Assembly: GCF_040822085.1 (NCBI RefSeq)
Contig: NZ_CP162006.1
Span: 372,001 to 436,000 of the forward strand
Origin: Rhodoferax sp. WC2427
Lineage (GTDB): Bacteria; Pseudomonadota; Gammaproteobacteria; Burkholderiales; Burkholderiaceae_C
Length of the DNA: 64,000 nt
Direction: 5' to 3'
Shown in pieces: positions 770 through 61,486 of this stretch. The notes beneath the pieces are model-generated. The model made no database searches and was not told the DNA's origin. It was given only the letters and a program-made list of their open reading frames with translations. The translations under genes were made by a program, and so were the position numbers. The number at the start of each line of letters is the position of its first letter. The stretch's first letter is position 1.

Positions 770-834
770 CATAAGAAAGTGGCTGTCAGCGCAGGATTAT
801 CTAGCGCAATCAGCTACCATTTCTATAGCTGATA
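770..834 (-). repeat. Palindromic repeat copy 1, intergenic (tsaB/dacB)
   Basis: On the minus strand this degenerate copy shows the core TAGCTGnTTGCGC followed by an AT-rich centre, GCGCTnACAGCC and a T-rich tail. It occupies nearly the whole space between the divergent tsaB and dacB genes, so any promoters must overlap it. Confidence 0.6.
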
Positions 835-838
835 ACCT

Positions 839-2278
839 ATGACCTATTCCACACACTCCCCCCGATTCTGGCGCAGCCTGTGCGCTCTTGCTTTGTGGGC
901 CGCATCCAGCCTGGCGCTGGCCCAGCGCCTGCCGCCCGATGTCGCCAACGCCCTGGCCCGGGCCAAGGTGCCGCAAGACGCCGTGAGCCTGTATGTGGCA
1001 CGCGCCGATGGGTTGGGCTCGCCGCGCCTGAGCCACCGGGCCAGCGTGCTGGTGAACCCGGCCTCGGTCATGAAGCTCGTCACCACCTTTGCCGCGCTCG
1101 ACACGCTGGGGGCCGACTACACCTGGAAAACCCGCTTCTACGCCGACGGCCCGCTCAAGGACGGCGTGCTCTACGGCAATTTGTACATCCAGGGCGGTGG
1201 CGACCCCAAGCTGGTGCTGGAGCGCATTGCCGCCACCTTTGCCGCCCTGCAAACCCGCGGCGTGCAAAAAGTGCGCGGCGACATCGTGCTGGACCACCAC
1301 CTCTTCGAGCCCGAAGCCCGCGACCCGGCCGAGTTTGACGGCCAGGCGCTCAGCCCCTACAACACCGCCCCCGACGGCCTGCTGGTCAACTTCAAGTCGC
1401 TGATCTTCACCTTCACCCCCGAGCCCGACAGCGGCATTGCCCGCATCCGCAGCGAGCCGCCGATTGCCGACGTGCAAATGGACGCGCAGGTGCCGCTCAG
1501 CACCCAAAGCTGCAACGACTGGCGCGGCGCGCTGCAGGCCGAGTTTGCCAACCCGGACCAGGTGCATTTCGGGGGCAGCTACCCGGTCAAATGCGGCGAA
1601 CGCGTCTGGCCCGTGGCCTACACCGACCCCGCCAGCTACGCCCGCCGGGTGCTGCAGGCCATGTACCTGGGGCTGGGCGGCAGCTTGACCGGCGTGGTGC
1701 GCGATGGCCGTACGCCAGGAGACGCCACCTGGCTGATGGACGCGCCCTCGCTGCCGCTGGGCGAGCTGATCGCCGATGTCAACAAATTCAGCAACAACGT
1801 AATGGCGCAGCAGATGTTCCTGACGCTGGGTCTGCAGGCGGGCCGACCCGGCACCTTTGCCGCGTCGCGCGCCGCCGTGGCCGCCTGGTGGCCGCAGGCC
1901 ATTGGCCGCAACGTGCCCGTGCCCACGCTGGAAAACGGCTCCGGCCTCAGCCGCGACGAGCGCACCAGCGCCAGCGCCCTGGGCCAGTTGCTGCGCCGCG
2001 CCGCCGCCCACCCGCAGGCGGCGGTGTTTGCCCATTCGCTGTCCGTGGCCGGGGTCGACGGCACTGCCCAGCGCATGCGCGACCGGGGCCTGGCCCCCGA
2101 ATCCATCGGCAACGCCCAGCTCAAAACCGGCACCTTGCGCGACGTGGCCTCGGTGGCCGGCTATGCCACCGGGCGCAGCGGCCAGCGCTACGTGGTGGTG
2201 GGCATCGTCAACCACCCGCTGGCCCCGGCGGCGCGCCCGGCACTGGACGCGCTGGTGGAGTGGGCAGTCAAAGAGTAA
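839..2278 (+). CDS. dacB: D-alanyl-D-alanine carboxypeptidase/endopeptidase, PBP4 type (peptidase S13)
   Basis: The 479-residue protein is a periplasmic low-molecular-weight penicillin-binding protein that trims or cleaves peptidoglycan cross-links. A signal peptide covers about residues 1-29 and ends in ALA-Q. The three serine-acyltransferase motifs are present: SVMK at residues 76-79 (nucleophile Ser76), SNN near residue 320 and KTG near residue 427. The length matches E. coli DacB. The ATG at 839 has no strong ribosome-binding site, and the upstream DNA is a copy of the palindromic repeat. Beta-lactam sensitivity is expected for the family but cannot be read from the sequence. Confidence 0.93.
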   Translation: MTYSTHSPRFWRSLCALALWAASSLALAQRLPPDVANALARAKVPQDAVSLYVARADGLGSPRLSHRASVLVNPASVMKLVTTFAALDTLGADYTWKTRFYADGPLKDGVLYGNLYIQGGGDPKLVLERIAATFAALQTRGVQKVRGDIVLDHHLFEPEARDPAEFDGQALSPYNTAPDGLLVNFKSLIFTFTPEPDSGIARIRSEPPIADVQMDAQVPLSTQSCNDWRGALQAEFANPDQVHFGGSYPVKCGERVWPVAYTDPASYARRVLQAMYLGLGGSLTGVVRDGRTPGDATWLMDAPSLPLGELIADVNKFSNNVMAQQMFLTLGLQAGRPGTFAASRAAVAAWWPQAIGRNVPVPTLENGSGLSRDERTSASALGQLLRRAAAHPQAAVFAHSLSVAGVDGTAQRMRDRGLAPESIGNAQLKTGTLRDVASVAGYATGRSGQRYVVVGIVNHPLAPAARPALDALVEWAVKE

Positions 2279-2351
2279 CAAATGTTATTTATCTCTGCGC
2301 GTTGGTAGTAACCCTTTGTGACTCGCGCGGGCTCCGGCGTACCATTTTAGT

Positions 2352-2373
2352 TACAAACGAACGACCGTTCTTT
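2352..2373. promoter_or_regulatory. Candidate TetR-type operator upstream of the SGNH lipoprotein gene
   Basis: The inverted repeat GAACG-AC-CGTTC at 2359-2370 extends outward with one mismatch to roughly 20 bp and sits just before the AAACAGGAG ribosome-binding site of the SGNH gene. Its size and layout are typical of TetR/AcrR operators. It shares the core ACGAyCGTTC with the palindrome in front of the TetR gene at 51.7 kb. The run of T after it could instead make it a weak hairpin terminator. Confidence 0.35.
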
Positions 2374-2392
2374 TTTTAAACAGGAGTGAAAA

Positions 2393-5422: not shown

Positions 5423-6424
5423 TTATGCGACCGAAGCGCGCTGCAACCGGTCGCGCACGCCTTCCCATTCGGGGGTGTCGGGGGGCGTTTCCACCCAGAT
5501 CAGGCGCACGCCCAGGGCATCGAAATCGCGCAGCGCGGCAAACAGCGCCTGGGCCGCGGCGGCAGCGTCCGTGGGCATGGGCTTGCACACCACCTGGGCC
5601 GAGCGGCTGCGCATCGGCTGGCGGGCGTACACGGCAATCGCTACCGACTGGCCGTCCAGGCCGGTGCCCAGGAGGTCCAGCGCGGTTTGCAGCGCGGCAG
5701 CGGTCATCAGCCGCACTTTGGCCGTGGGCGCGTAATGCGCCTCCAGCGTGCCGGAGGCGCGCGGGGCGTTGGCTACCGCGTCCTTGTCGCGCAGCGGCTG
5801 GCCGCAGGCGGCTTCGATCTGTTCGCGGCCAATGCTGCCGGGGCGCAGCAGCACCGGCACGCCCCGGGTGCAGTCCACGATGGTGGACTCGATGCCCATG
5901 GTGCACGGCCCGCCGTCCAGTACCAGCAGGTCGGGGCCGAACTCGGACTGCACATGGGCCGCCGTGGTGGGGCTGACGCGGCCAAACTGGTTGGCGCTGG
6001 GGGCTGCCAGCCCGGCCACGCCCAGGGCGGCGCAGGCTTGCAGCACTGCCTGGGCGACCGGGTGGGCCGGGCAGCGCAGGCCGATGCTGTCTTGCCCGCC
6101 CGCCGCCGCGGTGCCCACGCCAAGACGGCGCGGCAGGATCAGCGTCAGCGGGCCGGGCCAGAACGCGTCCATCAGCGCCTGGGCAAAGGCGGGTACCTGG
6201 GACGCGAAATGCGCCACGCCATCCCCGCCAGAGGCGATGTGCACGATCAGCGGGTGGTCGCTGGGGCGGCCCTTGGCGGTGAAGATCTTGGCCACCGCCG
6301 CGTCGCTGGACGCGTCAGCCGCCAGCCCGTACACCGTTTCGGTGGGCAGGCCCAGCAGCGCACCGTGGGCCAATGCCTGGGCGGCTTGCTGGATGGCCGC
6401 GGGGTCCTGGCCGGACAGCAGCAT
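5423..6424 (-). CDS. tsaC: L-threonylcarbamoyladenylate synthase, Sua5/YrdC/YciO type
   Basis: This enzyme makes threonylcarbamoyl-AMP from threonine, bicarbonate and ATP, the first step of tRNA t6A37 formation. The 333-residue product is the long Sua5 form: an N-terminal YrdC domain (LPTETVYGLAADA near residues 26-38, KGRPSDHPLIVHI near 50-62) and a C-terminal Sua5 domain. The start overlaps the purK stop by one base (TGATG), indicating translational coupling and a purE-purK-sua5 operon. Its partner TsaB is also in this window. Confidence 0.93.
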   Translation of the reverse strand: MLLSGQDPAAIQQAAQALAHGALLGLPTETVYGLAADASSDAAVAKIFTAKGRPSDHPLIVHIASGGDGVAHFASQVPAFAQALMDAFWPGPLTLILPRRLGVGTAAAGGQDSIGLRCPAHPVAQAVLQACAALGVAGLAAPSANQFGRVSPTTAAHVQSEFGPDLLVLDGGPCTMGIESTIVDCTRGVPVLLRPGSIGREQIEAACGQPLRDKDAVANAPRASGTLEAHYAPTAKVRLMTAAALQTALDLLGTGLDGQSVAIAVYARQPMRSRSAQVVCKPMPTDAAAAAQALFAALRDFDALGVRLIWVETPPDTPEWEGVRDRLQRASVA

Positions 6425-7584
6425 CAGAACGCCTCGATGCCGAGCAGCGCCGCGGCCTGCAGGGCGGTGGCGCGCACGGCGGACGCGGTGGGGCCGGTCA
6501 GCGTCAGGTGGCCCATTTTGCGGCCCTTGTTGGCGCTGGCCTTGCCGTACAGGTGCAGGTGCGCGCCGGGCAGGGCCAGCACGTCCGCCCAAGGGGGCGT
6601 GGCGGCTTGCTCGGAGCGCACAAACCACAGGTCGCCCAGCAGGTTCAGCATGATGGCCGGGCTGTGCTGGCGCGGCTGCACCAGCGGCAGGCCGGTGAGG
6701 GTGCGCACCTGCAGCTCGAACTGCGACACATCGCAGCAGTCCATGCTGGCGTGGCCGCTGTTGTGCGGGCGCGGGGCGATCTCGTTGACCACCAGGCTGC
6801 CGTCTTGCAGCACGAAAAACTCTACGCACAGCACGCCCACGTACTGCAACTCGTTTGCTATGGATTTTGCAGCTGCTACCGCTTGTTCCATCAGCGGTAG
6901 AGGCATATTTTCTTCATAGACTTCGGTGACGGCCAGAATGCCGTCGCGGTGCAGGTTGCGCTGGGGTGGCAAGTGCACCATCTGGCCGTCGGCACCGCGC
7001 GCCACGATCACCGAGCACTCGGCCTCCAGCGGCAGCATTTTCTCCAGCACGCAGGGCACGCTGTGCATGTCGGCCCAGGCCGCGGCCAGCGCGGCGCGGT
7101 CGGCCACGCGGGCCTGGCCCTTGCCGTCGTAGCCCAGGCGGGTGGTTTTCAGGATGCCGGGCAGCAGCGTTTCGTCCACTGCAGCTAGTTGCTCTGGCGT
7201 GTCGATCACCGCATAGGGCGCGCAGGGCACGCCGCAGCGCACGAAATGGGCTTTTTCGGCCGCGCGGTCCTGGGCGATGGCCACGGCCGACGCCGCGGGC
7301 GACACCGTGGTGTACACCGCCAGGCGGGCCAGGGCCGACGACGGCACATTTTCAAACTCGGTGGTGATGGCGTCGCAGGTCTCTGCCAACTGGCCCAGGC
7401 CCGGCGCGTCCAGGTAGCCGGCCTGGATATGGTGGTGGCTGACGCGCCCGGCCGGGCTGGCCGGGTCCGGGTCGAGCACGGCGGTGAAATAGCCCATGCG
7501 CTGGGCCGCGTGGATGAACATCCGGCCCAGTTGGCCGCCGCCCATCACGCCCAGCGTGGCCCCGGGAAGGATGGGGCCGCTCAT
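6424..7584 (-). CDS. purK: 5-(carboxyamino)imidazole ribonucleotide synthase
   Basis: PurK is an ATP-grasp ligase that carboxylates AIR to N5-CAIR in purine synthesis. The 386-residue protein starts with the nucleotide-binding loop [12 protein letters not shown] and has the family's length. It overlaps purE by four bases (ATGA) and sua5 by one. Residues about 223-243 are encoded by a copy of the palindromic repeat that is read through in frame; the peptide there ([19 protein letters not shown]) falls at a helix before the [10 protein letters not shown] strand, with codons such as ATA and GTA that are uncommon nearby. Confidence 0.95.
6855..6918 (+). repeat. Palindromic repeat copy 2, inside purK
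   Basis: This copy lies in forward orientation on the plus strand and contains TTGCTAT, an AGCTGCTACCGCTTGTTCC core, the complementary AGCGGTAGAGGC arm and a T-rich tail. The purK gene reads the opposite strand through it without a stop codon. Confidence 0.75.
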
Positions 7585-8142: not shown

Positions 8143-9102
8143 ATGATCGACGTTACCTTTGCCAACTTTGAAACCGAGGTCATTGCCGCCTCCATGACCA
8201 CCCCGGTGCTGGTCGATTTCTGGGCCCCGTGGTGCGGTCCGTGCAAGGTCATCGGCCCCATGCTGGAGAAGCTGGAGGCCGACTACGCGGGCCGCTTCAA
8301 GCTGGTCAAGATCGACTCCGACCAGGAGCAGCAACTGGCGGAAGCCTTCGGCATCCGCAGCATCCCCACCTGCATTTTGGTGGTCAACGGCCAGCCGGTG
8401 GACGGCTTCCAGGGCGCGCTGCCCGAGGGCAAGATCAAGGAATTCCTCGACAAGCATGTGCCCGAGGGCGCGCCGCTGGATGCCGAGCCGTCTGAGGCCG
8501 AACAAGCCCTGGCCCTGGCCGAGGCGGGCGACACCGACGCCGCCCTGGCCAAGCTGGCCGATGCCCTGGCGCTGGACCCGGCCAACGACGATGCCCGCTT
8601 TGACTACGTCCGCCTGCTCACCCAGGCCGGCCACCTGGAAGAGGCCGAAGCCGCACTGCAACCCACCCGCAAATACATCCCCTTGCAGTTGCGCTTTGAA
8701 GCCCTGTTACAGTGGATTGGTGCTCTTAATTTCGCAGCTATCCACGCCGATGGAACGGGCGATACAGCCGAATTTGACGTAAAAATCGCCGCCAACAAGC
8801 GCGACTTCGATGCCCGCTTTGCCAAAGGCCGCATCCTGATGGCCCAGGGCGAATGGACCGCCGCCATGGACGAGCTGCTGGAAATCATCATGCGCGACAA
8901 GAAGTGGAACGACGAAGCCCCCCGCAAGGCCTTCATCGCCATCCTGGAGCTGCTCACCCCGCCCAAGCCCAAAGCCAGCGCGGATGCAGGCAACAAGACC
9001 GCAGGCGGGATTGAGCTGTCTGGCAACTCCGTAGCAGCCCAAGACCCGCAGGCGCAGTTGGTGGCTACCTATCGTCGGCGGCTGAGCATGGTGCTGAATT
9101 GA
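8143..9102 (+). CDS. cnoX: Thioredoxin domain-TPR protein, CnoX/YbbN family
   Basis: CnoX proteins are chaperedoxins that hold unfolding proteins, protect their cysteines and hand them to GroEL or DnaK. The 319-residue product has an N-terminal thioredoxin domain with an intact WCGPC site (Cys31 and Cys34), unlike E. coli YbbN where the site is degenerate, followed by a C-terminal TPR-like half. The ATG at 8143 is preferred over an upstream TTG because the thioredoxin fold starts there. Residues about 192-214 are encoded by a diverged repeat copy that is in frame. Confidence 0.88.
   Translation: MIDVTFANFETEVIAASMTTPVLVDFWAPWCGPCKVIGPMLEKLEADYAGRFKLVKIDSDQEQQLAEAFGIRSIPTCILVVNGQPVDGFQGALPEGKIKEFLDKHVPEGAPLDAEPSEAEQALALAEAGDTDAALAKLADALALDPANDDARFDYVRLLTQAGHLEEAEAALQPTRKYIPLQLRFEALLQWIGALNFAAIHADGTGDTAEFDVKIAANKRDFDARFAKGRILMAQGEWTAAMDELLEIIMRDKKWNDEAPRKAFIAILELLTPPKPKASADAGNKTAGGIELSGNSVAAQDPQAQLVATYRRRLSMVLN
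8717..8786 (+). repeat. Palindromic repeat copy 3, inside the thioredoxin-TPR gene
   Basis: This highly diverged copy is recognised by alignment with copies 7 and 14. It keeps TTAATTT, GCAGCT, CACGCC, GAT, ACAGCC and a terminal TAAAAA at matching spacing. It is read in the same frame as copies 6 and 14, giving an AxxHA peptide. Confidence 0.5.
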
Positions 9103-9654: not shown

Positions 9655-10476
9655 TTAACGCATCAACACCCAGCGCACGCCGCTGCTCAGCCCGTCCACC
9701 AGCGCCACCAGCACCAGCATGGCCACCAGCACCGTGCTGGTCTCGGGCATCTGGAACAGGCCCATGTGGAAGGCCAGCATCTGGCCCAGGCCGCCCGCGC
9801 CCACCACGCCCAGCACGGTGGCGGCGCGGATGTTGTTTTCCCAGCGGTACAGGGTGTAGCTCACTAACTGCGGCAGCACCTGGGGCAGGCAGGCGTACAG
9901 CAGCACTTGCACAGCACCCACACCACGCGCGCGCAGGGCCTGGGCCGGGCCGTCGGGGGCGTTCTCCAGGCTCTCGGCAAACAGGCGGCCTAGCACGCCG
10001 GTGGTGTGCAGGGCCAGCGCCAGCGTACCGGCAAACGGCCCCAGCCCGGCGGCGACCAGCAGCAGCGTGGCCCACACCAGCTCGGGGATACTGCGCAGCG
10101 CATTCAGCAGCGCCCGCGTGGGGCCGCGCCACAGCGCCTTATCCTCGGCGTGGGTTTTGCTGGCGGGCAGGGCCAGCGCCAGGCCGCAGACCACCGCCAG
10201 CAGCGTGCCCAGGGCCGACATGGCCAGGGTCTCCAGCGTGGCGGTCAGCAGCTTGCGCAGAAAGGCCGGTGTGGTGTTGGGCACCAGCAGCTCGGCCACA
10301 AAGCGGCCCATGCGCTGCAGCGCGTCGGTGGAGAGGAATTTGGCCCACTGCAAATCCAGCGTGGCAAAGCTGGCCCCCACCAGTGCCACCACGCCGAGGA
10401 CGAACCACAGGGCCTTGGAGCGGGCGTGGAACAGTGCCGGGGGCAGCTTGTAAGTCTCGTTGGCGGCAAGTTTCAC
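9655..10476 (-). CDS. phnE: Phosphonate-type ABC transporter permease, second subunit
   Basis: The 273-residue membrane protein has about six hydrophobic helices and the binding-protein-dependent transport motif in the region SYTLYRWENNIRAATVLG...GAGGLGQ. It resembles PhnE and the permeases of phosphonate or phosphite importers. It starts with GTG overlapping the stop of the upstream permease (GTGA), so the two are coupled. Two different permease genes in tandem suggest a heterodimeric channel. It ends a phnD-phnC-permease-permease run interrupted by an AlbA_2 gene. Confidence 0.88.
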   Translation of the reverse strand: MKLAANETYKLPPALFHARSKALWFVLGVVALVGASFATLDLQWAKFLSTDALQRMGRFVAELLVPNTTPAFLRKLLTATLETLAMSALGTLLAVVCGLALALPASKTHAEDKALWRGPTRALLNALRSIPELVWATLLLVAAGLGPFAGTLALALHTTGVLGRLFAESLENAPDGPAQALRARGVGAVQVLLYACLPQVLPQLVSYTLYRWENNIRAATVLGVVGAGGLGQMLAFHMGLFQMPETSTVLVAMLVLVALVDGLSSGVRWVLMR

Positions 10477-11312
10477 GCGAGCCCTTTGCGCAACCACGCA
10501 CTGGTGCAATCCGCCAGCCACACCAGCACCATGAACACCAACAGCATGGTGCTGACTTCGGAGCCGTTGAACATCTTCATCGACGCGTCCATGTGCTGGC
10601 CCAAGCCGCCTGCGCCCACAAAGCCCAGCACGGCAGACGAGCGGATGGCGCACTCCCAGCGGTAGACGGTGTAGCTGGTCAGCTCGCCCGCGTTTTGCGG
10701 CAGCAGGCCGTAGAAGAAGGCTTGCAGCCGCCCGGTGCCATGGCGCAGCAGGGCCTGGGTGGCGGCGGGCTCACCGGATTCCAGAATCTCGGCGTAGACC
10801 TTGCCCAGCATGCCCGCGTAGGTCAGCGCAATGGCCAGCACGCCCGAGGTGGGGCCCAGGCCCACCACGCGCACAAACACCAGCGCCCAGACCAGCTCGG
10901 GCACGCTGCGCAGCAGCACCAGCAGCCAGCGCACCGCCAGCCGCACGCCCGCGCCCAGCGGAGCCATGCGGCCCGTCAGCGCAGAAATCGACAGCACCCG
11001 TACCGATAGCAGCGTCAGCGGCACCGCCAGCAGCAGCGCCAGGGTGATGCCTGCGGTGGCCATGGCCACGGTGCGCCAGGTTTCCTGGGCCACGGTCCAC
11101 AAAAAGGCGGGCTCCAGCTTGGGCGGGAAAAAGTCGCCCACGAAGCGCAGCGTGGGCCGCAGGCTGTCGGGCTGCAGCAGCACCCAGGGCTGGAATTCGG
11201 TGAGCACCAGCAGCGGCCACAGCAGCACGGTGGCGGCCAGCAGCCAGAACAGGCGGCTGTGCCAGGCGGGGTCGCGGATGGAGTCGCGGGGAAGATGGGG
11301 GCTTATCGGCAA
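10473..11312 (-). CDS. phnE: Phosphonate-type ABC transporter permease, first subunit
   Basis: The 279-residue product is homologous to the following gene and shows the same EAA-like region (SYTVYRWECAIRSSAVLG, then GAGGLGQH). No ATG is available in the right place; the best start is TTG at 11312, inside the end of phnC and overlapping it by ten bases, so the N-terminus is uncertain by a few residues. It would import phosphonate, phosphite or a related anion with PhnC and PhnD; the substrate cannot be decided from sequence alone. Confidence 0.85.
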   Translation of the reverse strand: MPISPHLPRDSIRDPAWHSRLFWLLAATVLLWPLLVLTEFQPWVLLQPDSLRPTLRFVGDFFPPKLEPAFLWTVAQETWRTVAMATAGITLALLLAVPLTLLSVRVLSISALTGRMAPLGAGVRLAVRWLLVLLRSVPELVWALVFVRVVGLGPTSGVLAIALTYAGMLGKVYAEILESGEPAATQALLRHGTGRLQAFFYGLLPQNAGELTSYTVYRWECAIRSSAVLGFVGAGGLGQHMDASMKMFNGSEVSTMLLVFMVLVWLADCTSAWLRKGLA

Positions 11313-47407: not shown

Positions 47408-47410
47408 CAG

Positions 47411-51498: not shown

Positions 51499-51508
51499 CC
51501 ACTGGCTC

Positions 51509-51571
51509 AATGCCTTTGAGGCTGCTGATGCTTATGGAATAAGCGTGAGAAGCTATTGAATAAATAGCAAT
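51509..51571 (-). repeat. Palindromic repeat copy 13, intergenic (FAH/TetR)
   Basis: The minus strand reads TTGCTATTTATTCAATAGCT then TCTCACGCTTATTCCATAAG and CATCAGCAGCC. It directly follows the FAH gene and precedes its terminator. Confidence 0.85.
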
Positions 51572-51587
51572 TGCTATTGACAAACAC

Positions 51588-51617
51588 AAAAAGACCGCCG
51601 CTTTGCTGCGGTCTTTT
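51588..51617 (+). terminator. Rho-independent terminator of the SDR-FAH operon
   Basis: AAAAGACCGC pairs perfectly with GCGGTCTTTT around a nine-base loop and ends in a T run. Confidence 0.9.
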
Positions 51618-51716
51618 GCGTGGTGGCGCCATGGGTTTACCCTGTCGCACAGGCGCAAAAAATGCGGTCCCATCGGTAGACTTTTGAAACCCAATCTGGT
51701 TAAATTCGAAAAAATA

Positions 51717-51728
51717 GCACGATCGTTC
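51717..51728. promoter_or_regulatory. Candidate TetR autoregulatory operator
   Basis: The palindrome ACGATCGT (with flanking G and C also paired) lies about 20 bp ahead of the TetR ATG. It shares ACGAyCGTTC with the inverted repeat upstream of the SGNH esterase gene at 2.36 kb. Confidence 0.4.
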
Positions 51729-51748
51729 GTATTTTTCACTTGACACCC

Positions 51749-52408
51749 ATGGCCCTCACTGAACACCCCGCCAAAGTAGCCCGCGACGCGTCCCTGGATG
51801 GGCGCGCACTGCTCAAGGGCCGCCAGACCAAGGCCTCCATCATCGAGGCCGCCTTGGGCCTGGCCAGCCACATCGGACTCGAAGGCCTGAGCATTGGCGC
51901 GCTGGCCGAAGTCACGCAAATGAGCAAGTCCGGCGTGTTTGCCCATTTCGGCTCGCGCGAAGAGCTGCAAATCTCCGTCATCCGCGAGTACTACCGCCAG
52001 TTTGAGGCCGAGGTGTTCTACCCCGCCATGCAGGCCCGGCGCGGCCTGCCCCGGTTGCAGGCGCTGTTTGCCAACTGGATGCAGCGCGTGGCCATCGAGC
52101 TGCAGTCGGGCTGCATTTTCATCAGCGGCGCGGTCGAGTTCGACGACCGGCCCGGTCCGGTGCGCGACGCGCTGGCCAACTCGGTCCAGGCCTGGCTGTC
52201 AGCGTTTTGCCGCGCCGTGGTGCAGGCCAAGGAAGTCGGCGACCTGCGTGCCGATGCCGATGAACGCCAAGTCGCCTTCGAGATACACGGTTTGATCTTG
52301 TCGCTGCACTATGAGCACCGCTTTCTGAAGAACCCCGGCGCAGTCGACCGTGCCAACACCGGTTTTGCCCACCTCCTGGCGCGCTACGGACAGCCTGCCA
52401 ACCCCTGA
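51749..52408 (+). CDS. TetR-family regulator of the acyl-CoA degradation cluster
   Basis: The 219-residue protein has a TetR DNA-binding domain at about residues 25-75 (IIEAALGLASHIGLEGLSI, then MSKSGVFAHFGSREELQ) and a helical ligand domain. The ATG at 51749 was chosen over a TTG nine bases earlier. It is 32 bp upstream of an acyl-CoA dehydrogenase gene in the same direction, so it probably senses acyl-CoA and controls this cluster from the palindrome in front of it. Confidence 0.88.
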   Translation: MALTEHPAKVARDASLDGRALLKGRQTKASIIEAALGLASHIGLEGLSIGALAEVTQMSKSGVFAHFGSREELQISVIREYYRQFEAEVFYPAMQARRGLPRLQALFANWMQRVAIELQSGCIFISGAVEFDDRPGPVRDALANSVQAWLSAFCRAVVQAKEVGDLRADADERQVAFEIHGLILSLHYEHRFLKNPGAVDRANTGFAHLLARYGQPANP

Positions 52409-52440
52409 AAACAGCCTTTTAAAAATTCCAAGGAGCCCCC

Positions 52441-54237
<1,797 letters not shown>

Positions 54238-54356
54238 GGACGCACGGACACCGGCACCCCGACAGAAGCGGTTTTTTTGATGCAATTGAAACGCTTTCTT
54301 ACGGGCTGCTATGGGTCCAGGGTGGTTACCCTCGTTCCTTTTACCGGAGATCCAAA

Positions 54357-54785
54357 ATGAAGAAAATCGTAGCACTTACCGCTGGTCTGATCTGCGCAAG
54401 CGCCGTATTCGCCCAAATGACCCCCGAAGGCCTGTGGCGCAGCATCGACGACAAATCGGGCCAGCCCAAGGCCGAGATCCGTATCACCGCCAATGGCGGC
54501 GTGCTGTCCGGCGTGGTCGAAAAGTCCCTGATGCCCAGCAATGAAACGCATTGCACCGCCTGCACCGACGACCGCAAGGACAAGCCCAAGCTGGGCATGG
54601 AAATCATCCGCGGCGCCAAGAAAGCCGACGGCAAGGACGTGTGGGAAGACGGCAAGATCCTCGACCCCGACAACGGCAAAAACTACACCCTGCGCCTGGA
54701 GCCGCTGGAAGACGGCAAGAAACTCCAGGTGCGTGGCTATATCGGCCCGTTCTACCGCACCCAGGTGTGGCAACGCATACAGTAA
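54357..54785 (+). CDS. DUF2147-family secreted protein
   Basis: The 142-residue product has a signal peptide (about residues 1-20, cleavage at VFAQ) and the DUF2147 pattern: PEGLWRSIDDKSGQP, the CTAC pair, and the GPFYRTQVWQRI C-terminus. These lipocalin-like small exported proteins have no fixed function; several occur near fatty-acid genes. It lies between the acyl-CoA dehydrogenase and fadN-like genes, both in the same direction. Confidence 0.88.
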   Translation: MKKIVALTAGLICASAVFAQMTPEGLWRSIDDKSGQPKAEIRITANGGVLSGVVEKSLMPSNETHCTACTDDRKDKPKLGMEIIRGAKKADGKDVWEDGKILDPDNGKNYTLRLEPLEDGKKLQVRGYIGPFYRTQVWQRIQ

Positions 54786-54800
54786 TTTTGAAAGAAGCCC

Positions 54801-57215
54801 ATGTCCCGATTCCCGATTAAAAAAGTTGCCGTGCTGGGTGCTGGCGTGATGGGTGCACAGATCGCTGCGCACCTGGTCAACGTCAAAGTGCAAGTGGTGC
54901 TGTTTGACCTGAAAGCCAAGGAGGGCCCGGCCAACGGCATCACCGCCAAAGCTATTGCCAACCTGAAAAAGCTCAAACCCGCGCCCCTGGGCGTGGCCGA
55001 CGACGCAGCCCTGATCCAGGAGGCCAACTACGACGACCACCTGGAGCAATTGAAGGACTGCGACCTCATCATCGAGGCGATCGCGGAACGCATGGACTGG
55101 AAGCTCGATCTGTACAAAAAGATCGCGCCCTTTGTGGCCCCGCACGCGCTGGTGGCCTCCAACACCTCGGGCCTGTCGATCACCAAGCTCAGTGAAGCGC
55201 TGCCCGAGGAAATCAAGCCGCGCTTTTGCGGCATCCATTTCTTCAACCCGCCGCGCTACATGTACCTGGTGGAGCTGATCAACACGCCCACCACCCGGCC
55301 CGAAGCGCTGGACCAGCTCGAAGCCTTCGTCACCACCAGCCTGGGCAAGGGCGTGGTGCGGGCCAAGGACACGCCCAACTTCATCGCCAACCGCGTGGGT
55401 ATCGCCGGCATGCTGGGCATCATCGGCGAGACGCAAAAGTTTGGCCTGACCTATGACGTGGTGGACGACCTGACCGGCAAGCGCCTGGGCCGCGCCAGCT
55501 CGGGCACCTTCCGCACCGCCGACGTGGTGGGTCTGGACACGATGGCCCACGTGGTCAAGACGCTGCAAGACAACCTGAGCCTGGAAACCGACCCGTTCTA
55601 CGGCAGCTACGGCACGCCGCCGGTGCTGGCGCAGTTGCTGGAAATGAAGAACCTGGGCCAGAAAACCAAGGCCGGTTTCTTCAAGAAAGTGGGCCGCGAT
55701 GTGCTGCGCTTCGACGCGGCCAGTGCCACCTACGTGCCCGGCGGCGAAAAGGCCGACGAGGTCTATGGCCGCATGCTCAAGAAGCCCGCCGCCGAGCGCC
55801 TGGCCCTGCTGCGCAGCAGCGAAGGCCCGCAAGGTCAATTCCTGTGGGCCATCCTGCGCAACAGCTTCCACTACGCCGCCGTGCACCTGCAAACCATCGC
55901 CGAAACCGCCCGCGATGTCGATCTGGCCATGCGCTGGGGCTTCGGCATGCAGCAAGGCCCGTTCGAACTGTGGCAAGAAGCCGGTTGGCTCACCGTGGCC
56001 AACTGGATCAAGGAAGACATAGAGGCTGGCAAAGCCCTGAGCAATGCGCCCTTGCCCGACTGGGTGTTCAAGGGCCCGGTGGCCGAGGCCGGTGGTGTGC
56101 ACACGGCAGAAGGTTCGTGGAACCCGTCTACTTCAAAATTTGTAGCGCGTCACGCCCTTGCTGTCTACGATAGGCAGCTGTTTCCTGAAAAAATATCCGG
56201 CCACACCCAAGGCCTGGGCCTGGGCGGTGGATTCGAGACGGCGGGCGCCACGCTGTTCGAAGACAAGGCGATACGCCTGTGGACGCTCGATGACCAAGTG
56301 GTCATCGCCAGCATCAAAACCAAGATGCACGCCATCAGCCCCGAAGTTTCCGAAGGCCTGGCCCGTGCGGTCGATCTGGCCGAAAAGGATTACGCCGCCG
56401 TGGTGGTCTGGTCGGGCGACGAGCCCTTCAGCGCCGGTGCCGACCTGCAGGCCATGCTGCCCGGCTTCATGATGGGCGGCGCGGCTGCCATCAATATCGC
56501 CGAGAAGGCCCTGCAAAGCGTGATGCTGAAAATCCGCTACGCCAACGTGCCGGTGGTGTCTGCCATCCGGGGCCTGGCCCTGGGCGGCGGCTGCGAGCTG
56601 GCGGTGCATTCGGCCCGCCGCGTGGTGGCGATGGAAAGCTACATCGGCCTGGTGGAAGTGGGCGTGGGCCTGGTGCCCGGCGCGGGCGGCCTGACCTATA
56701 TCGCCCGCCGGGCCGCGGAAAACGCCGCCCTGTCGGTGCACAAAGACCTGCTGCCCTTCCTCACCGAAGGCTTCACCGCCGCCGCCATGGCCAAGGTGGG
56801 CACCAGCGCGCTGGAGTCGCGCAAGCTGGGCTACCTGCTGGACAGCGACGTCATCGTGCCCAACAAGGACGAACTGCTGTTTGTCGCCCTCAATGAAGCC
56901 AAAGCCATGGCCGCCAGCGGGTACCGCGCCCCGCACAAACGCACGTTCCCCGTGGCAGGCCGCAACGGCAAGGCCACCATCCAGGGCCAGCTGGTCAACC
57001 TGCGCGACGGCGGTTTCATCAGCCAGCACGACTTCCACATCGCCAGCCTGATCGCCGGTGTGGTGACGGGCGGCGACGTGGACAACGGCACCCTGGTCAC
57101 CGAGGAATACCTCATGGCCCTGGAGCGCAAAGCCTTCTGCAGCCTGCTGGAAAATGCCAAAACGCAGGAACGCATCATGGGTATGCTGAGTACGGGTAAG
57201 CCGGTACGCAACTAG
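54801..57215 (+). CDS. 3-hydroxyacyl-CoA dehydrogenase/enoyl-CoA hydratase, FadN-type
   Basis: The 804-residue bifunctional beta-oxidation enzyme has the NAD domain first (VLGAGVMGAQIAAHL at residues 10-24) and the crotonase domain last (FSAGADLQAM and ALGGGCELAVHSARR after residue 540). This is the FadN order, opposite to E. coli FadB. Residues about 443-465 (SKFVARHALAVYDRQLFPEK) are encoded by a palindromic repeat located in the linker region between the two halves. It runs toward a thiolase gene, from which a DUF559 unit now separates it. Confidence 0.92.
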   Translation: MSRFPIKKVAVLGAGVMGAQIAAHLVNVKVQVVLFDLKAKEGPANGITAKAIANLKKLKPAPLGVADDAALIQEANYDDHLEQLKDCDLIIEAIAERMDWKLDLYKKIAPFVAPHALVASNTSGLSITKLSEALPEEIKPRFCGIHFFNPPRYMYLVELINTPTTRPEALDQLEAFVTTSLGKGVVRAKDTPNFIANRVGIAGMLGIIGETQKFGLTYDVVDDLTGKRLGRASSGTFRTADVVGLDTMAHVVKTLQDNLSLETDPFYGSYGTPPVLAQLLEMKNLGQKTKAGFFKKVGRDVLRFDAASATYVPGGEKADEVYGRMLKKPAAERLALLRSSEGPQGQFLWAILRNSFHYAAVHLQTIAETARDVDLAMRWGFGMQQGPFELWQEAGWLTVANWIKEDIEAGKALSNAPLPDWVFKGPVAEAGGVHTAEGSWNPSTSKFVARHALAVYDRQLFPEKISGHTQGLGLGGGFETAGATLFEDKAIRLWTLDDQVVIASIKTKMHAISPEVSEGLARAVDLAEKDYAAVVVWSGDEPFSAGADLQAMLPGFMMGGAAAINIAEKALQSVMLKIRYANVPVVSAIRGLALGGGCELAVHSARRVVAMESYIGLVEVGVGLVPGAGGLTYIARRAAENAALSVHKDLLPFLTEGFTAAAMAKVGTSALESRKLGYLLDSDVIVPNKDELLFVALNEAKAMAASGYRAPHKRTFPVAGRNGKATIQGQLVNLRDGGFISQHDFHIASLIAGVVTGGDVDNGTLVTEEYLMALERKAFCSLLENAKTQERIMGMLSTGKPVRN
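56127..56195 (+). repeat. Palindromic repeat copy 14, inside the fadN-like gene
   Basis: Aligned with copy 7 it shares TCAAAAT, TAGC, TCACGCCC, TAGGC or AGGC, TTTC and TGAAAAAAT at fixed spacing. The gene reads it on the same strand in the frame also used by copies 3 and 6; copy 7 has an in-phase TAA here, which this coding copy lacks. Confidence 0.65.
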
Positions 57216-57240
57216 CGGCAACGGACCCTCGACTTCCTCC

Positions 57241-57271
57241 TTCCCCCTTCGGGGGAAGGCCGGGATGGGGG
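57241..57271 (+). repeat. Left inverted repeat of the DUF559 unit
   Basis: The 31-bp sequence consists of TTCCCCCTTCGGGGGAAGG, itself a hairpin, followed by CCGGGATGGGGG. It matches the reverse complement of the right repeat at 29 of 31 positions. Confidence 0.92.
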
Positions 57272-57279
57272 CACGCACC

Positions 57280-57705
57280 ATGCACAACCACGCCACACCC
57301 GCCGCCAACACCCATGCCCGTCTTTTGCGGGCAGGAATGACCGATTCCGAGCGGCGGCTGTGGTCGCGTTTACGCAGGGAGCAGTTGGGAGTGAAGTTTC
57401 GCCGCCAGCATCCGCTGGGCAACTTCATTGCCGACTTTGCGTGTCTGGCCCCCAAGCTGGTGGTCGAACTCGACGGGTCTCAGCACGCCGACCATGCTGC
57501 GTACGACGCGCGCCGAGAGGCGTTCATACGCAGCCAGGGTTTTACCGTGCTGCGCTTTGCGACCGACGCGCCTTTTTCCAATCTCGAAGGGGTGTTGGTG
57601 GTGATTTTGGAAGCACTCGCTGCCGCCTCCACCAGCCCCCATCCCAGCCTTCCCCCGGAGGGGGAAGGGGCGAATACCGCACACATTTCCAGGAGCCCTC
57701 CATGA
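57280..57705 (+). CDS. DUF559-domain endonuclease-like protein
   Basis: The 141-residue protein has the DUF559 fold, related to very-short-patch-repair and restriction-type nucleases: the helix MTDSERRLWSRLRREQLG, then KFRRQHPLGNFIADF with catalytic-like Asp, VVELDGSQHAD with a second acid pair, and FTVLRF. The start at 57280 (MHNHAT) is just inside the left repeat. The C-terminal segment SPHPSLPPEGEG is translated from the right repeat, and the stop overlaps the thiolase start (ATGA). The real biological end of the protein may therefore be accidental. Confidence 0.82.
   Translation: MHNHATPAANTHARLLRAGMTDSERRLWSRLRREQLGVKFRRQHPLGNFIADFACLAPKLVVELDGSQHADHAAYDARREAFIRSQGFTVLRFATDAPFSNLEGVLVVILEALAAASTSPHPSLPPEGEGANTAHISRSPP
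57636..57666 (-). repeat. Right inverted repeat of the DUF559 unit
   Basis: It reads CCCCCATCCCAGCCTTCCCC then CGGAGGGGGAA on the plus strand and lies inside the DUF559 reading frame, 25 bases before the AGGAG site of the thiolase gene. Confidence 0.92.
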
Positions 57706-58907
57706 AACACATCCAAGACGCCTACATCGTCGCCGCCACCCGCACACCCATTGGCCGCTCGCACAAGGGTTATCTGCGCAACACCCGGCCCGACGAGCTG
57801 CTGGCCACCACGCTGCGGGCCGCCCTGGCCCAGGTGCCGGGCCTCGACCCGGCCAGCATCGAAGACGTGATCTGCGGCTGCGCCATCCCCGAAGCCCAGC
57901 AGGGCCTGAACGTGGCGCGCATCGGCGCGGTGCTGGCCGGGCTGCCAAATTCGGTGGGGGGCATCACCGTCAACCGCTTCTGCGCCTCGGGCATCAGCGC
58001 GGTGCAGATGGCGGCTGACCGCATCCGCGTGGGCGAGGCCGACGTGATGTTTGCCGCTGGTGTGGAAAGCATGAGCATGGTGCCCATGATGGGCAACGGC
58101 CCCAGCCTGTCGCCCAATATCTTCAGCAACACCGACGACGTGGACAACTACGGCATCGCCTACGGCATGGGCCTCACCGCCGAGAAAGTGGCGCAGCAGT
58201 GGAAAATCAGCCGCAGCGCGCAAGACGAGTTTGCCTACGCCTCGCACATGAAGGCGCTGGCAGCGATGAAAGCTGGCTATTTCAGCGACGAGATCACTCC
58301 CATCACGGTGGACGACCGCAGCGTCGACCTGGACAGCGCCAAGGTCAGCATCCACCAGCGCACCGTCAGCCTGGACGAAGGCGTGCGCCCCGAGACCACC
58401 GTGGAAGGCCTGGGCAAACTGAAGACGGTGTTCTCGGCGCGTGGCTCGGTCACGGCCGGCAACAGCTCGCAAACCTCGGACGGCGCAGGCGCGCTGATTT
58501 TGGCCAGCGAGTCGGCCGTGAAGCGCTTTGGCCTGACGCCGCTGGCCCGCTTCGTCAGCTTTGCCAGCAAGGGCGTGCCGCCGCACATCATGGGCATCGG
58601 CCCGATCGAGGCGATTCCCGCCGCGCTGCGCTACGCCGGGCTGAAGCACCAGGACATCGACTGGTTCGAGCTGAACGAGGCTTTCGCCGCCCAGTCGCTG
58701 GCGGTGATGAACACCCTGGGCCTGGACCCGTCCAAGGTCAACCCCATGGGCGGCGCGATCGCCCTGGGCCACCCGCTGGGCGCCACCGGTGCCATCCGTG
58801 CCGCCACCGTTATCCACGCGCTGCGCCGCAACAACCTGAAGTACGGCATGGTGACCATGTGCGTCGGCATGGGCCAGGGCGCAGCAGGCATTTTTGAGCG
58901 GGTTTAA
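57702..58907 (+). CDS. fadA: Acetyl-CoA C-acyltransferase (3-ketoacyl-CoA thiolase)
   Basis: The 401-residue thiolase completes beta-oxidation. It shows the acylated cysteine in NRFCASGISAVQ near residue 91, NEAFAAQSLAVM, GHPLGATGA and the proton-donor cysteine in CVGMGQGAAG near 390. AGGAG lies seven bases before the ATG. It partners the fadN-like gene upstream, from which it is separated by the DUF559 unit, and is followed after four bases by an enoyl-CoA hydratase. Confidence 0.95.
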   Translation: MKHIQDAYIVAATRTPIGRSHKGYLRNTRPDELLATTLRAALAQVPGLDPASIEDVICGCAIPEAQQGLNVARIGAVLAGLPNSVGGITVNRFCASGISAVQMAADRIRVGEADVMFAAGVESMSMVPMMGNGPSLSPNIFSNTDDVDNYGIAYGMGLTAEKVAQQWKISRSAQDEFAYASHMKALAAMKAGYFSDEITPITVDDRSVDLDSAKVSIHQRTVSLDEGVRPETTVEGLGKLKTVFSARGSVTAGNSSQTSDGAGALILASESAVKRFGLTPLARFVSFASKGVPPHIMGIGPIEAIPAALRYAGLKHQDIDWFELNEAFAAQSLAVMNTLGLDPSKVNPMGGAIALGHPLGATGAIRAATVIHALRRNNLKYGMVTMCVGMGQGAAGIFERV

Positions 58908-58911
58908 CACC

Positions 58912-59673
58912 ATGACCGACATCCTGACCCACACCGAAGACGGCATTCTGACCATCACGCTGAACCGCGTGGCCAAGAAGAACTCCCTCACCGCCGCCAT
59001 GTACACCGCGATCTCCGACGCGCTGGAGGCGGCGCAGGCCGACCCGGTGGTGCGGGTGGCGGTGGTCCAGGGGCACGAGACCATCTTTTCGGCGGGCAAC
59101 GACATCGGCGACTTCTTGAAGGCGCCGCCCAGCGCCGACTCGCCGGTGATCCGCTTCCTGCGCGTCATCAGCAGCTTCCCCAAGCCGTTGATTGGTGCGG
59201 TGTGCGGCGCGGCGGTGGGCGTGGGCACCACGCTGCTGCTGCACTGCGACCTGGTCTATGCGGGTGACAACGCGGCGTTTTCGCTGCCGTTTGTCAACCT
59301 GGGCCTATGCCCCGAGGCTGGCTCCAGCTACCTGCTGCCGCGCCTGATGGGCCACCAGCGTGCGGCCGAAGCGCTGCTGCTGGGCGACCCGTTCACCGCC
59401 GAGACGGCGCTGGAAGTGGGCCTGATCAACCGCATCGTGCCGCCCGCCGAGGTGCACGCCCTGGCGCACCGCCAGGCCCAGCGCCTGGCGGCCAAACCCA
59501 TGGCTTCCCTGGTGGCCAGCAAACGCCTGATGAAGCAGGAGCAGGCCGCCCCGGTGGCTGCGCGCATCGACGAAGAAATCGCCATCTTTGGCCGCATGCT
59601 GCGCGAGCCTGCCGCCAAAGAGGCGCTGACCGCATTCATGGAAAATCGCCGCCCGGATTTCTCCGCTTTCTGA
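58912..59673 (+). CDS. Enoyl-CoA hydratase/isomerase family protein
   Basis: The 253-residue crotonase has the oxyanion-hole segments FSAGNDIGDFL (near residues 63-73) and GAAVGVGTTLLLHCDLVYA (near 103-121), and the LPFVNLGLCPEAGSS catalytic region near 128-142 with its glutamate. It begins four bases after the thiolase stop. Its role may be hydration of short or unusual enoyl-CoAs or an isomerase step. Confidence 0.92.
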   Translation: MTDILTHTEDGILTITLNRVAKKNSLTAAMYTAISDALEAAQADPVVRVAVVQGHETIFSAGNDIGDFLKAPPSADSPVIRFLRVISSFPKPLIGAVCGAAVGVGTTLLLHCDLVYAGDNAAFSLPFVNLGLCPEAGSSYLLPRLMGHQRAAEALLLGDPFTAETALEVGLINRIVPPAEVHALAHRQAQRLAAKPMASLVASKRLMKQEQAAPVAARIDEEIAIFGRMLREPAAKEALTAFMENRRPDFSAF

Positions 59674-59704
59674 TCCAGTGCGTGCATAGAATCCACGCTT
59701 TCCC

Positions 59705-60724
59705 ATGAAAGCCTCTATGCACGCTGGATACCCGGTCCGTCGCTCCGTTCTTGCCTGCCTGGGCGGCGTGCTCACCGGGCTCTCGCCCGCGCTGCACGCC
59801 CAGAACCTGCCCCCCTTCAAAAAGCTGCCCACCAAGCCCTTGGCGGCGCGCATGCGCATCGTCATCCCCGCCAATGAAAACGGCGGCTGGGACCAGACGG
59901 GCCGGGCCCTGGGGGCGTCCATGGTGGCCGCGGGCCTGTGCGAGCAGATTGATTTCGAAAACCTGGGCGGCAAAGGTGGCACGCTAGGTCTGGCTGCATT
60001 TGTGCAAAAGTACGGCCAGGATCCCAACGCCTTGCTGGTCGGCGGCGCGGTGATGGTGGGGGCTGTGGCCCTGCAGCGGCCGGTGGTCGACCTCGGCCAG
60101 GTACAACCCCTGGCGCGCCTCACCAGCGACTATCTGGTCATGGTGGTCAAGGCCGACTCGCCCATCCAGACGGTCGCCGACCTGGTAGCGCTGGCGCGCA
60201 AAGACATCAAGGGCGCGCCTTTCGCCGGGGGCTCTGCGGGCGGGATCGACCATATTTTTTCGGGCCTGTTCGTCCGCGCTGCCGGGGCTGCGGTGGGCGA
60301 TCTGGTCTACCAACCGTTTGCCGGGGGCGTGCAAGTGGCCGATGCCGTGCTGTCGGGCAAGGCGGTGGTGGGGGTGTCGGGCTACAGTGAGTTTTCCGAT
60401 CTGCTGGCAGGCAGCAAGCTGCGGGCGATTGGTGTGTCGTCACGCAAGACCACGTTCGGCATCCCGGCCATCCGCGACCAGGGCGTGGATGCGGTGATGT
60501 CCAATTGGCGTGGCCTGCTGGTCGGCAACGGCGTGGGCCCCGCGCGCCTGGCCGAGCTGCTCGATGGTGTGCACCGGGCTACCGCGCACCCGTCCTGGCT
60601 GCAAAGCCTCAAGGCCAAGCGCTGGGATGCCGCGTGGCTGGCGGGCGACGATCTGCGCAGTTTCATGGACATGGACCGCACTACGGCGGCGGCCATGGCG
60701 TATCTGTTGAAGCTAAAGGCTTAA
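59705..60724 (+). CDS. Bug/TctC-family periplasmic binding protein
   Basis: The 339-residue protein has a signal peptide (to about residue 35, ALHAQN junction) and the TctC fold, with PANENGGWDQTGRAL near residue 53 and ENLGGKGGTLG near 88. Such proteins bind carboxylates for tripartite tricarboxylate transporters, but no tctA or tctB genes are adjacent, as is usual for the many orphan Bug proteins of Burkholderiales. A second ATG 12 bases later is possible. Confidence 0.88.
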   Translation: MKASMHAGYPVRRSVLACLGGVLTGLSPALHAQNLPPFKKLPTKPLAARMRIVIPANENGGWDQTGRALGASMVAAGLCEQIDFENLGGKGGTLGLAAFVQKYGQDPNALLVGGAVMVGAVALQRPVVDLGQVQPLARLTSDYLVMVVKADSPIQTVADLVALARKDIKGAPFAGGSAGGIDHIFSGLFVRAAGAAVGDLVYQPFAGGVQVADAVLSGKAVVGVSGYSEFSDLLAGSKLRAIGVSSRKTTFGIPAIRDQGVDAVMSNWRGLLVGNGVGPARLAELLDGVHRATAHPSWLQSLKAKRWDAAWLAGDDLRSFMDMDRTTAAAMAYLLKLKA

Positions 60725-60785
60725 TAGTCTTTTGACCTGCTAGCGCTTATTTGGTAAGCGTAAGCAGCTACTAAATGCATAGCGC
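60724..60785 (-). repeat. Palindromic repeat copy 15, intergenic (Bug/gph)
   Basis: The minus strand reads TAGTAGCTGCTTACGCTTAC, then AAATAAGCGCTAGCAGGTC and AAAAGACTA. It fills the convergent gap and borders the gph stop codon. Confidence 0.85.
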
Positions 60786-60787
60786 TG

Positions 60788-61486
60788 CTAAATATCTACC
60801 AGCGCATCCAGAAACCCATCGCAATCCACCATGCGCACCGGCTCACCGTGGTTGTAGCCGTAGGTCACCAGCAGCACCGGGCAGCCCGCAGCCCGGGCAG
60901 CCTGGGCATCGTTGCTGGAGTCGCCCACCACCAGGGTGTGGGCGGGCAGGGTGCCCAGGGCTTCGCAGGTTTTCAGCAGCGGCAGCGGGTCGGGCTTTTT
61001 GCGGTCAAACGAATCCCCGCCAAACACCTGGCTGAAAAAACCGCCCAGCCCCTTGGCCTGCAGCAGCGGCAGGGCCAGGGCGATGGGTTTGTTGGTCACG
61101 CAGGCCAGCTTCCAGCCGCGCTGCTGCATGGCCTGCAAGCCGGCCACCACACCGGGGTACAGCTGCGAAAACTGCCCGTTGATGGCCCCGTAGTGGTGCT
61201 GGTAGCGCGCGAACGCCCGGTCGAACAACGCTTCATTATGGATAGCAGCTTGTGCCGATGGAATAAGCGCCAGCACATGTTTAAGCACTGAATGGATGAG
61301 GTTCTCAGAGCCCTTGCCCACCATCGGTTCGATGGCGCTGGGGGCGATCGCGGGCAGGCCCAGGTCGACCAGCATGCCGTTCAAGGCGGCCGCAAAGTCG
61401 CCCAGGGTATCGACCATGGTGCCGTCGAGGTCGATGATGGCGGCGTGGATGGCGGGCTTAATACAGCACCCGCCGAAACATGCCAA
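60788..61486 (-). CDS. gph: Phosphoglycolate phosphatase
   Basis: The HAD-family enzyme removes phosphate from 2-phosphoglycolate. It has the nucleophile aspartates in IIDLDGTMVDTLGD, the VTNKP threonine motif, the lysine in FDRKKPDPLPL and VVGDSSNDAQAA. No ATG exists before the conserved start; TTG at 61486 inside the dienelactone hydrolase gene is assumed, and an ATT at 61462 is the alternative. A repeat-derived peptide (LALIPSAQAAIHN, residues about 67-85) extends the cap domain. Confidence 0.85.
   Translation of the reverse strand: MACFGGCCIKPAIHAAIIDLDGTMVDTLGDFAAALNGMLVDLGLPAIAPSAIEPMVGKGSENLIHSVLKHVLALIPSAQAAIHNEALFDRAFARYQHHYGAINGQFSQLYPGVVAGLQAMQQRGWKLACVTNKPIALALPLLQAKGLGGFFSQVFGGDSFDRKKPDPLPLLKTCEALGTLPAHTLVVGDSSNDAQAARAAGCPVLLVTYGYNHGEPVRMVDCDGFLDALVDI
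61233..61287 (+). repeat. Palindromic repeat copy 16, inside gph
   Basis: The plus strand reads TTATGGATAGCAGCTTGTGC then CGATGGAATAAGCGCCAGCA and ends without the usual T-rich tail. The gph gene reads the opposite strand through it in the same frame as copies 2, 10 and 11. Confidence 0.75.

Follow-up and report, generated by a model that had tools for sequence, protein, structure and literature searches.

A palindromic repeat of about 64 bp, dispersed through a 64-kb stretch of DNA (positions 372001-436000 of the 4.78-Mb single-contig genome NZ_CP162006.1, labelled G000; hereafter the window), is best explained as a recognition signal spread over the whole genome, which a sequence-specific protein reads as double-stranded DNA. 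Most likely it serves DNA uptake, as a functional counterpart of the DNA uptake sequences of Neisseriaceae and the uptake signal sequences of Pasteurellaceae, a reading that we hold with slightly less than even confidence. In such a mechanism, the protein would recognise the element as double-stranded DNA, a trans-acting receptor would have shifted its specificity between species with the sites following, and the signal would have spread by biased uptake and recombination. The nearest named relatives of the G000 Dxr protein belonged to Extensimonas, Polaromonas and Variovorax, with identities of no more than 77% (very near genomes were possibly omitted); from these relatives, G000 appears to belong to the Comamonadaceae.

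The consensus of 232 copies was tTGCTATnnAATtAATAGCTGCTtaCGCTgATgGAATAAGCGCtAGcGGCCtATTTnatYTaAAA, with a G+C content of ca. 36%. It consists of a constant dyad (GCTAY-N7-RTAGC), an adjoining central palindrome that differs between species in the manner of a dialect, and a T/A-rich right end. With up to three mismatches the core pattern matched 17 places in the window against 0.36 expected, and with up to one mismatch it matched 120 places in the whole genome, where the pattern read backwards gave a single match. The profile scan proposed by an earlier, sequence-only reading of the window was run on 59 evenly spaced 20-kb stretches of G000 plus the window (1.244 Mb). The iterated search yielded 401 matches, which merged into 232 elements, against none in a first-order Markov control; extrapolation gives a genome total of ca. 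890 copies, and 58 of the 59 sampled stretches carried at least one. In a control of real DNA, the G000 model gave one match at E < 0.01 in 622,795 bp of named relatives for which the core pattern had no match or had not been counted, and this control is conservative since some of its genomes carry the element by a dialect-free count. The sole match, in Variovorax EL159, was near a place where Acidovorax and Polaromonas carry a copy. In the genus mates G155, G039, G151 and G153, models trained in each genome found 17.4-19.8 copies per 100 kb and none in the control. Outside called elements, the half dyad GCTA-N9-TAGC occurred 17 times against 4 in the control sequences (counted over the whole control), and some of these matches were missed elements; the whole element, not the half dyad, thus looks like the unit.

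The constant dyad permitted a count across 150 genomes of the family, in which a genome counted as enriched if its matches numbered 27 or more and reached 1.8 times the reversed control. Enrichment was found in 43 of the 150, some with only 0-5 matches to the G000 dialect, and 16 genomes from other families of the order had 0-5 matches each. Matches (with the control after the stroke) numbered 225/27 in Acidovorax HMWF029, 350/18 and 207/11 in Polaromonas, 211/16 in Ramlibacter H39, 234/26 in Xylophilus, 93/13 in Variovorax RYN_538, 172/7 in a Comamonadaceae metagenome-assembled genome, 50/19 in Extensimonas and 36/12 in Comamonas testosteroni; Variovorax EL159 (41/51) was not enriched, and the remaining 18 of the 28 named genomes had 0-7 matches.

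Within one genus, the central palindrome took the forms GCGCTTAT/ATAAGCGC and GCGCAGAT/ATCTGCGC. By the own-genome models, with one genome compared per species, G155 had GCGCTTAT/ATAAGCGC (near G000), G151 and G153 had GCGCAGRT/ATCTGCGC, and G039 had GCGCAGGT/ATATGCGC; both arms shifted together between species. Column 26 was T or C in 244 of 251 intergenic and 40 of 45 in-gene copies of G000 and G155, and A in 131 of 152 intergenic and 34 of 39 in-gene copies of G039, G151 and G153, and column 36 was A or G in 243 of 251 and 37 of 45 copies of the first group and T in 124 of 152 and 25 of 39 copies of the second, although the training of each model on its own genome brings some circularity into these tallies. 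Orthologous in-gene sites provided a freer test, and 16 of 54 had sequence from both clades. At the second-clade sites that no model had called, among them those of G154, for which no model existed, column 26 was A in 11 of 14. The dialect columns 26, 35 and 36 differed in 0.60 of the 16 site groups on average, compared with 0.18 for 46 other non-dialect columns, and at dxr and gph some species pairs shared the letters of the loop and the left dyad while their dialect letters differed.

Watson-Crick pairing between the arms was evaluated in 203 intergenic copies of G000. At 19 of 21 pairs it was about what columns drawn independently would give (P > 0.05), in a test in which near-invariant pairs have no power. 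That the arms covary so little within one genome suggests that the element is read as double-stranded DNA, and would make a DNA-bound protein more likely than an RNA hairpin. An automatic RNAalifold structure contained only six pairs, and that model was set aside; no Rfam family was found in the window.

A protein unrelated to uptake could also read such a signal. If the element were bound by a protein that organises the chromosome, or by some other DNA-binding protein, and were kept by selection along the chromosome, drift in the specificity of that protein would produce the dialects, and the double-stranded type of conservation, the presence of copies in nearly every sampled stretch and the obedience of in-gene copies to the dialect would all be in keeping with it. 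We consider this rather unlikely, because the number of sites extrapolated for G000, the patchy enrichment across the family and a strong preference for gene 3' ends, which such proteins do not need, speak against it.

This preference was seen when genes were called with our own gene caller. The 232 copies comprised 88 in convergent gaps, 94 in tandem gaps, 17 in divergent gaps, 29 inside genes and 4 at stretch ends. Among gaps of 40-400 bp, copies were present in 69 of the 81 between convergent genes, in 73 of the 302 between tandem genes and in 13 of the 125 between divergent genes, and convergent gaps were similarly occupied in G155 (14 of 18), G039 (21 of 29) and G151 (21 of 27). Many tandem copies started less than 20 bp from the stop codon. 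Together with arms that are able to pair, these positions are what a lineage-specific bidirectional transcription terminator or other 3'-end element would show, with the in-gene copies as by-products or roadblocks. An intrinsic-terminator scan covering 33 kb (the 14 kb at 22000-36000 and the 19 kb at 45000-64000 of the window) overlapped only one element, at 24790-24812, and so gave no support to an intrinsic terminator, in which a stem is directly followed by a T run. Since the arms also hardly covary within the genome, and in-gene copies that change with the dialect would be left unexplained, a terminator is an unlikely account of the element as a whole.

The sequence-only reading had reported one fixed frame per orientation for the in-gene copies, and a frame bias beyond chance was confirmed. 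Five genomes supplied 54 in-gene sites, among which two or more orthologous pairs were left unmerged; one frame was used by 25 of 31 copies on the strand opposite to the gene and one by 17 of 23 copies on the same strand. With the expectation taken from the frames free of stop codons in 403 intergenic copies, the observed counts (expected in parentheses) were 25 (10.0), 5 (13.0) and 1 (2.5) for frames opposite-1, opposite-2 and opposite-0, and 17 (16.4), 0 (11.5) and 6 (0.6) for same-0, same-1 and same-2, a bias not reached by any of 20,000 simulations (Monte Carlo P = 5e-5). The 25 sites with scores of at least 25 bits were divided into 11 opposite-1, 8 same-0, 4 opposite-2 and 2 same-2. Stop codons alone are thus insufficient to account for the frame bias, and peptide compatibility is its likely cause. 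Peptide compatibility is reportedly also the cause of frame bias in uptake sequences, according to Findlay and Redfield. The orientation bias described for in-gene uptake sequences (PMC2346458) is in line with the bias observed here.

The element also altered the protein sequence, as had been claimed, and the codons that encode it. One of the 29 in-gene copies of G000 lacks full flank and was left out of analyses with longer windows, such as the dialect tallies, which used 28. In all 29, the G+C content at third codon positions (GC3) was 0.41, compared with 0.86 in the remaining sequence of these genes (Wilcoxon P = 4e-9), although low GC3 is partly built into an A+T-rich motif. In these 29 genes, 12 rare codons made up 104 of 522 codons inside the elements and 234 of 12711 outside. 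According to Pfam, the hosts include the conserved proteins Dxr, PurK, HemD, HSP70, SelO, galactokinase and peptidase M1.

The sequence-only reading had likened these copies to Rickettsia palindromic elements (RPEs), which are inserted in frame, and had suggested that sharply bounded insertions would emerge from alignment with orthologues. When genus mates were compared from flank to flank, length was equal in 42 of 45 comparisons (covering 13 of 20 in-gene copies with an available relative), although most of these pair two element carriers, so that the equal lengths indicate stability and do not test insertion; of the three unequal ones, two were in G152 (-39 and -9 nt) and one was in G154 (+1 nt). 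In 21 of 187 in-gene comparisons the alignment was gapped within the element, often owing to G152 or to local alignment shifts. For Dxr, which was matched in 38 of 40 genomes, 30 loci were read including that of G000, and none of the other 29 orthologues had a gap at the site over 39 residues. By eye, the dxr site looked like the element in genus mates and, in part, in four further genera; in the others the codons were plain and G+C-rich. The models also called it in Extensimonas, Polaromonas, Ramlibacter and C. testosteroni. A second in-gene place was common to Acidovorax, Polaromonas, Ramlibacter, Extensimonas and C. testosteroni, five of the six loci with a match there; in Xylophilus the longest open frame was a different one.

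The proper test of insertion lies in element-free or distant homologues, for which the best two or three PDB alignments per protein were read by eye. PurK did not differ in length from two PDB homologues at the site, HSP70 and SelO were shorter than theirs, and galactokinase and aminopeptidase N were one residue longer. The gph-type phosphatase gave mixed results, with a net excess of one residue in one alignment and of 10 or more in two. Among 11 host proteins, 6 (Dxr included) had at most one extra residue, 4 had 5-13, and 1 was mixed; a full insert of 17-21 residues was found in none of them. In-frame insertion of the Rickettsia type was thus not upheld as the general mechanism, with no insertion in 6 of the 11 proteins. 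Rather, these alignments suggest that the in-gene copies mostly arose by letter changes; the element lies in variable stretches, where both in-place change and small length changes occur, and at the sites with extra residues partial insertion or drift in loop length may have acted.

A mobile palindromic element, of the RPE, REPIN or miniature inverted-repeat transposable element type, would have entered genes in frame and perhaps been trimmed later. Its dispersed palindromic copies, the two favoured frames, the additional residues in 4 of the 11 proteins and the fact that the lengths shorter by 39 and 9 nt in G152 fall at two of these four sites are compatible with this history. The six proteins with at most one extra residue and the lack of any full-length insert make it quite improbable, as does the distribution of the RAYT-type domain Y1_Tnp, which was above the cut-off in 111 of 150 family genomes, many of them without the core pattern, and was not among the matches listed for the core-pattern carriers G141 and G095. 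As a separate observation, the repeat-rich family genome G015 had 20 Y1_Tnp matches, several with identical scores, which suggests an active IS200-like element. Short-tract gene conversion between copies, which would overwrite resembling in-gene stretches in concerted evolution, could account for concerted dialects between species and for the loop columns 30-32 differing in 0.40 of the 16 site groups, and is very improbable given the contrast between the dialect columns and the 46 others and the species pairs at dxr and gph.

An uptake signal remains the explanation that we prefer, and the family offers a setting for it. Selective transformation has been reported for Acidovorax and Verminephrobacter: in A. 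temperans only conspecific DNA yielded transformants, and V. eiseniae takes up DNA selectively and requires type IV pili to do so (PMC4212676). The passages of that paper on DNA uptake sequences (DUS), on uptake or signal sequences and on sequence specificity name no signal for A. temperans or V. eiseniae, and the present element is a candidate for it. With somewhat more reserve, we propose that the element is the uptake signal behind selective transformation in the Comamonadaceae, which would make it an independently evolved and structurally new DUS, a large double-stranded site with two dyads and species dialects that is strong enough to rewrite codons in ordinary genes such as dxr and purK. 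In the open-licence literature, exact strings of the element were not found, nor was a report of a DNA uptake sequence in the Comamonadaceae or of an uptake signal sequence in transformation of the Burkholderiales; regarding repeats, that literature held the betaproteobacterial repeat BRE and nothing closer. The repeat mentioned in PMC2755013 is a CRISPR array.

Several observations weigh against an uptake signal. With about 64 conserved columns, the element is far longer than the known uptake words of 9-12 bp. The occupancy of convergent gaps suggests a local task at 3' ends that uptake would not need. In the dialect comparison, column 36 was T in only 6 of the 14 uncalled orthologous sites of the second clade, columns 23 and 32 varied from clade to clade at rates (0.69 and 0.62) similar to those of the dialect columns, and the loop differences given above belong here too; the arms showed an excess of pairing at 26:36 (P = 0.0005) and 21:41 (P = 0.016). 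In the element-poor G152, GC3 was 0.48-0.60 at three of five sites of the same length, where this genome may keep traces of the element. The extra residues are also on this side: eight in the YfiH-type protein; eight in the CoA-transferase in two PDB alignments, the third ending before it passes the site; five to seven in the D-amino-acid-aminotransferase-type protein; and six within the site plus seven just after it (13 in all) in the YjeF_N/Carb_kinase protein, by the one alignment that covers it. The spacing of copies had a variance/mean ratio of 0.72 (lower-tail P = 0.053), so that evenness is only suggestive, and the lower density in the least typically coding fifth of the stretches (2.3 versus 4.1 copies per 20 kb), which in itself speaks for an uptake signal, cannot be separated from the effect of the number of convergent gene pairs. 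The species barrier in Acidovorax could lie at recombination instead of uptake. ComEC was found in 144 of 150 family genomes and does not discriminate between them (none of the six without a match was among the 43 enriched); neither ComEC nor Y1_Tnp tracks the element across the family. Plasmids and phages gave no match at E 0.01 in a search that had little power, with one copy as the query.

Two observations touch on these last subjects in their own right. In a family genome with 102 dyad matches, the ComEC matches fell into three neighbouring segments that seem to differ in frame (G003:C1:1836740-1837544), perhaps through recent loss of competence, and one IMG/VR viral contig carried the exact core palindrome (L257:6085-6112).

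As an uptake signal, the element could explain how environmental betaproteobacteria discriminate between self and foreign DNA. It would also be a case of a genome-wide DNA signal overriding codon choice within proteins, in a group whose close relatives allow the change of dialect to be tracked site by site. The in-gene copies further carry a warning that seeming in-frame repeat insertions can be in-place change.

Within the window, a scan that took the best of four models gave 34 places at E ≤ 5. As the sequence-only reading had no coordinate list, its 16 copies were identified among these by their fit to its end points, count and named genes. The repeat was confirmed at 15 of the 16 places (E < 0.01); 13 were strong (22.7-51.5 bits), two were weaker, and one was not significant. 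Copies between genes were at 788-828 (minus strand; 22.7 bits with the G151 model) and 14085-14136 (minus; 51.5 bits); those between convergent genes were at 24779-24825 (plus; 40.1 bits), 29354-29405 (minus; 48.8 bits), 47415-47463 (plus; 42.4 bits) and 60731-60782 (minus; 37.9 bits); and those between tandem genes, after a stop codon, were at 28720-28771 (minus; 37.8 bits) and 51516-51567 (minus; 39.6 bits). Of the seven in-gene copies that had been claimed, three were placed by Pfam in the genes named: purK (6424-7584, minus), with a copy at 6858-6909 (plus; 27.5 bits) that has another dialect in G039; a Wzy_C_2/PglL-type ligase gene (34491-36002, minus), of equal length in G155 and G039, with a copy at 34865-34916 (plus; 36.6 bits); and the HAD phosphatase gene called gph (60788-61525, minus), of equal length in five genus mates with other dialects, with a copy at 61231-61282 (plus; 28.4 bits). 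Two were weak. A copy at 8723-8761 (plus; 12.8 bits, E 0.0078) is in a 319-aa gene (8143-9102, plus) that had been named 'thioredoxin-TPR', and a 319-aa gene of G155 also has a called copy (L179:5084-5135), aligned with this place; at 19826-19849 (minus; 15.9 bits, E 0.00077), only the left half was present, in a 401-aa gene (19580-20785, minus) that had been named 'bioF'. The copy assigned to an 'M48 protease' (31174-32586, minus) was at 32655-32706 (plus; 26.3 bits), upstream of that gene and between it and the called gene 32810-33307 (plus), so that its location inside a gene is doubtful. The copy assigned to a 'fadN-like' gene (54849-57215, plus) did not hold, since its place at 56135-56159 (plus) had 4.0 bits and an E-value of 4.4. 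A further weak place that the sequence-only reading had not included (54363-54400, plus; 14.6 bits, E 0.0024) lies where an open frame (MKKIVALTAG...) begins; read by eye, this frame gives MKKIVALTAGLICASAV, which resembles a signal peptide.

The remaining copy, at 12135-12186 (minus), overlaps the 3' end of a gene. It scored 33.7 bits with the own model and 45.8 bits with the G039 model, and a copy that matches the G039 dialect better than its own, beside a Schlafen-type gene, might mark transferred DNA. The frame at 12172-14040 (minus) has Schlafen AlbA_2 and HATPase_c_4 domains, and near its 3' end a 21-bp unit is repeated three times head-to-tail (12450-12530). Elsewhere in the window, two adjoining genes at 9655-11312, perhaps a tandem pair of paralogues, have in common an 81-bp stretch with 80% identity, 815 bp apart, and a G+C-rich inverted repeat (57239-57272 and 57635-57668) has arms of 34 nt that are 94% complementary, with 362 nt between them.

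Among known systems, DUS are words of 10-12 bp, and REP/REPIN sequences are palindromes located 3' of genes. The element resembles REP/REPIN sequences with RAYT in its palindrome and 3' position, but the Y1_Tnp distribution given above, including the carriers G141 and G095, does not fit a REPIN/RAYT system. The repeat BRE is also betaproteobacterial, occurs in Comamonadaceae as well and has some copies in genes (PMC3110155). It is described as ca. 90 bp long, with a mean G+C content of 69% in Bordetella, sometimes in tandem and with at most 29 copies per genome (PMC3110155); it is this description, not a comparison of letters, that sets it apart from the shorter, A+T-rich and far more numerous element of G000. 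RPEs are palindromic, dispersed, partly located in genes and read in frame (PMC10969869), and the element is like them in all of these respects, including a favoured frame, but they are insertions of ca. 150 bp, whereas 6 of the 11 host proteins compared here had at most one extra residue. The uptake signal sequences of Pasteurellaceae likewise have in-gene copies with an orientation bias (PMC2346458), although they are 10-bp words unrelated to the element in sequence and lineage. The DUS of Neisseriaceae occur in thousands of copies with species dialects, inverted pairs linked to terminators and copies in genes (PMC3630211), and their receptor is ComP (PMC3868556). For the element, in contrast, the receptor is putative, and the length of ca. 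64 bp and the two dyads count against the uptake reading; because the element differs from DUS and from uptake signal sequences in length and symmetry, it is not classed as a DUS. With its genome-wide over-representation, its dialects between related species, and its copies both within genes and, capable of forming hairpins, at 3' ends, it nevertheless has its closest parallel in DUS, as a dialect-bearing motif of 3' ends and gene interiors that overrides codon choice.

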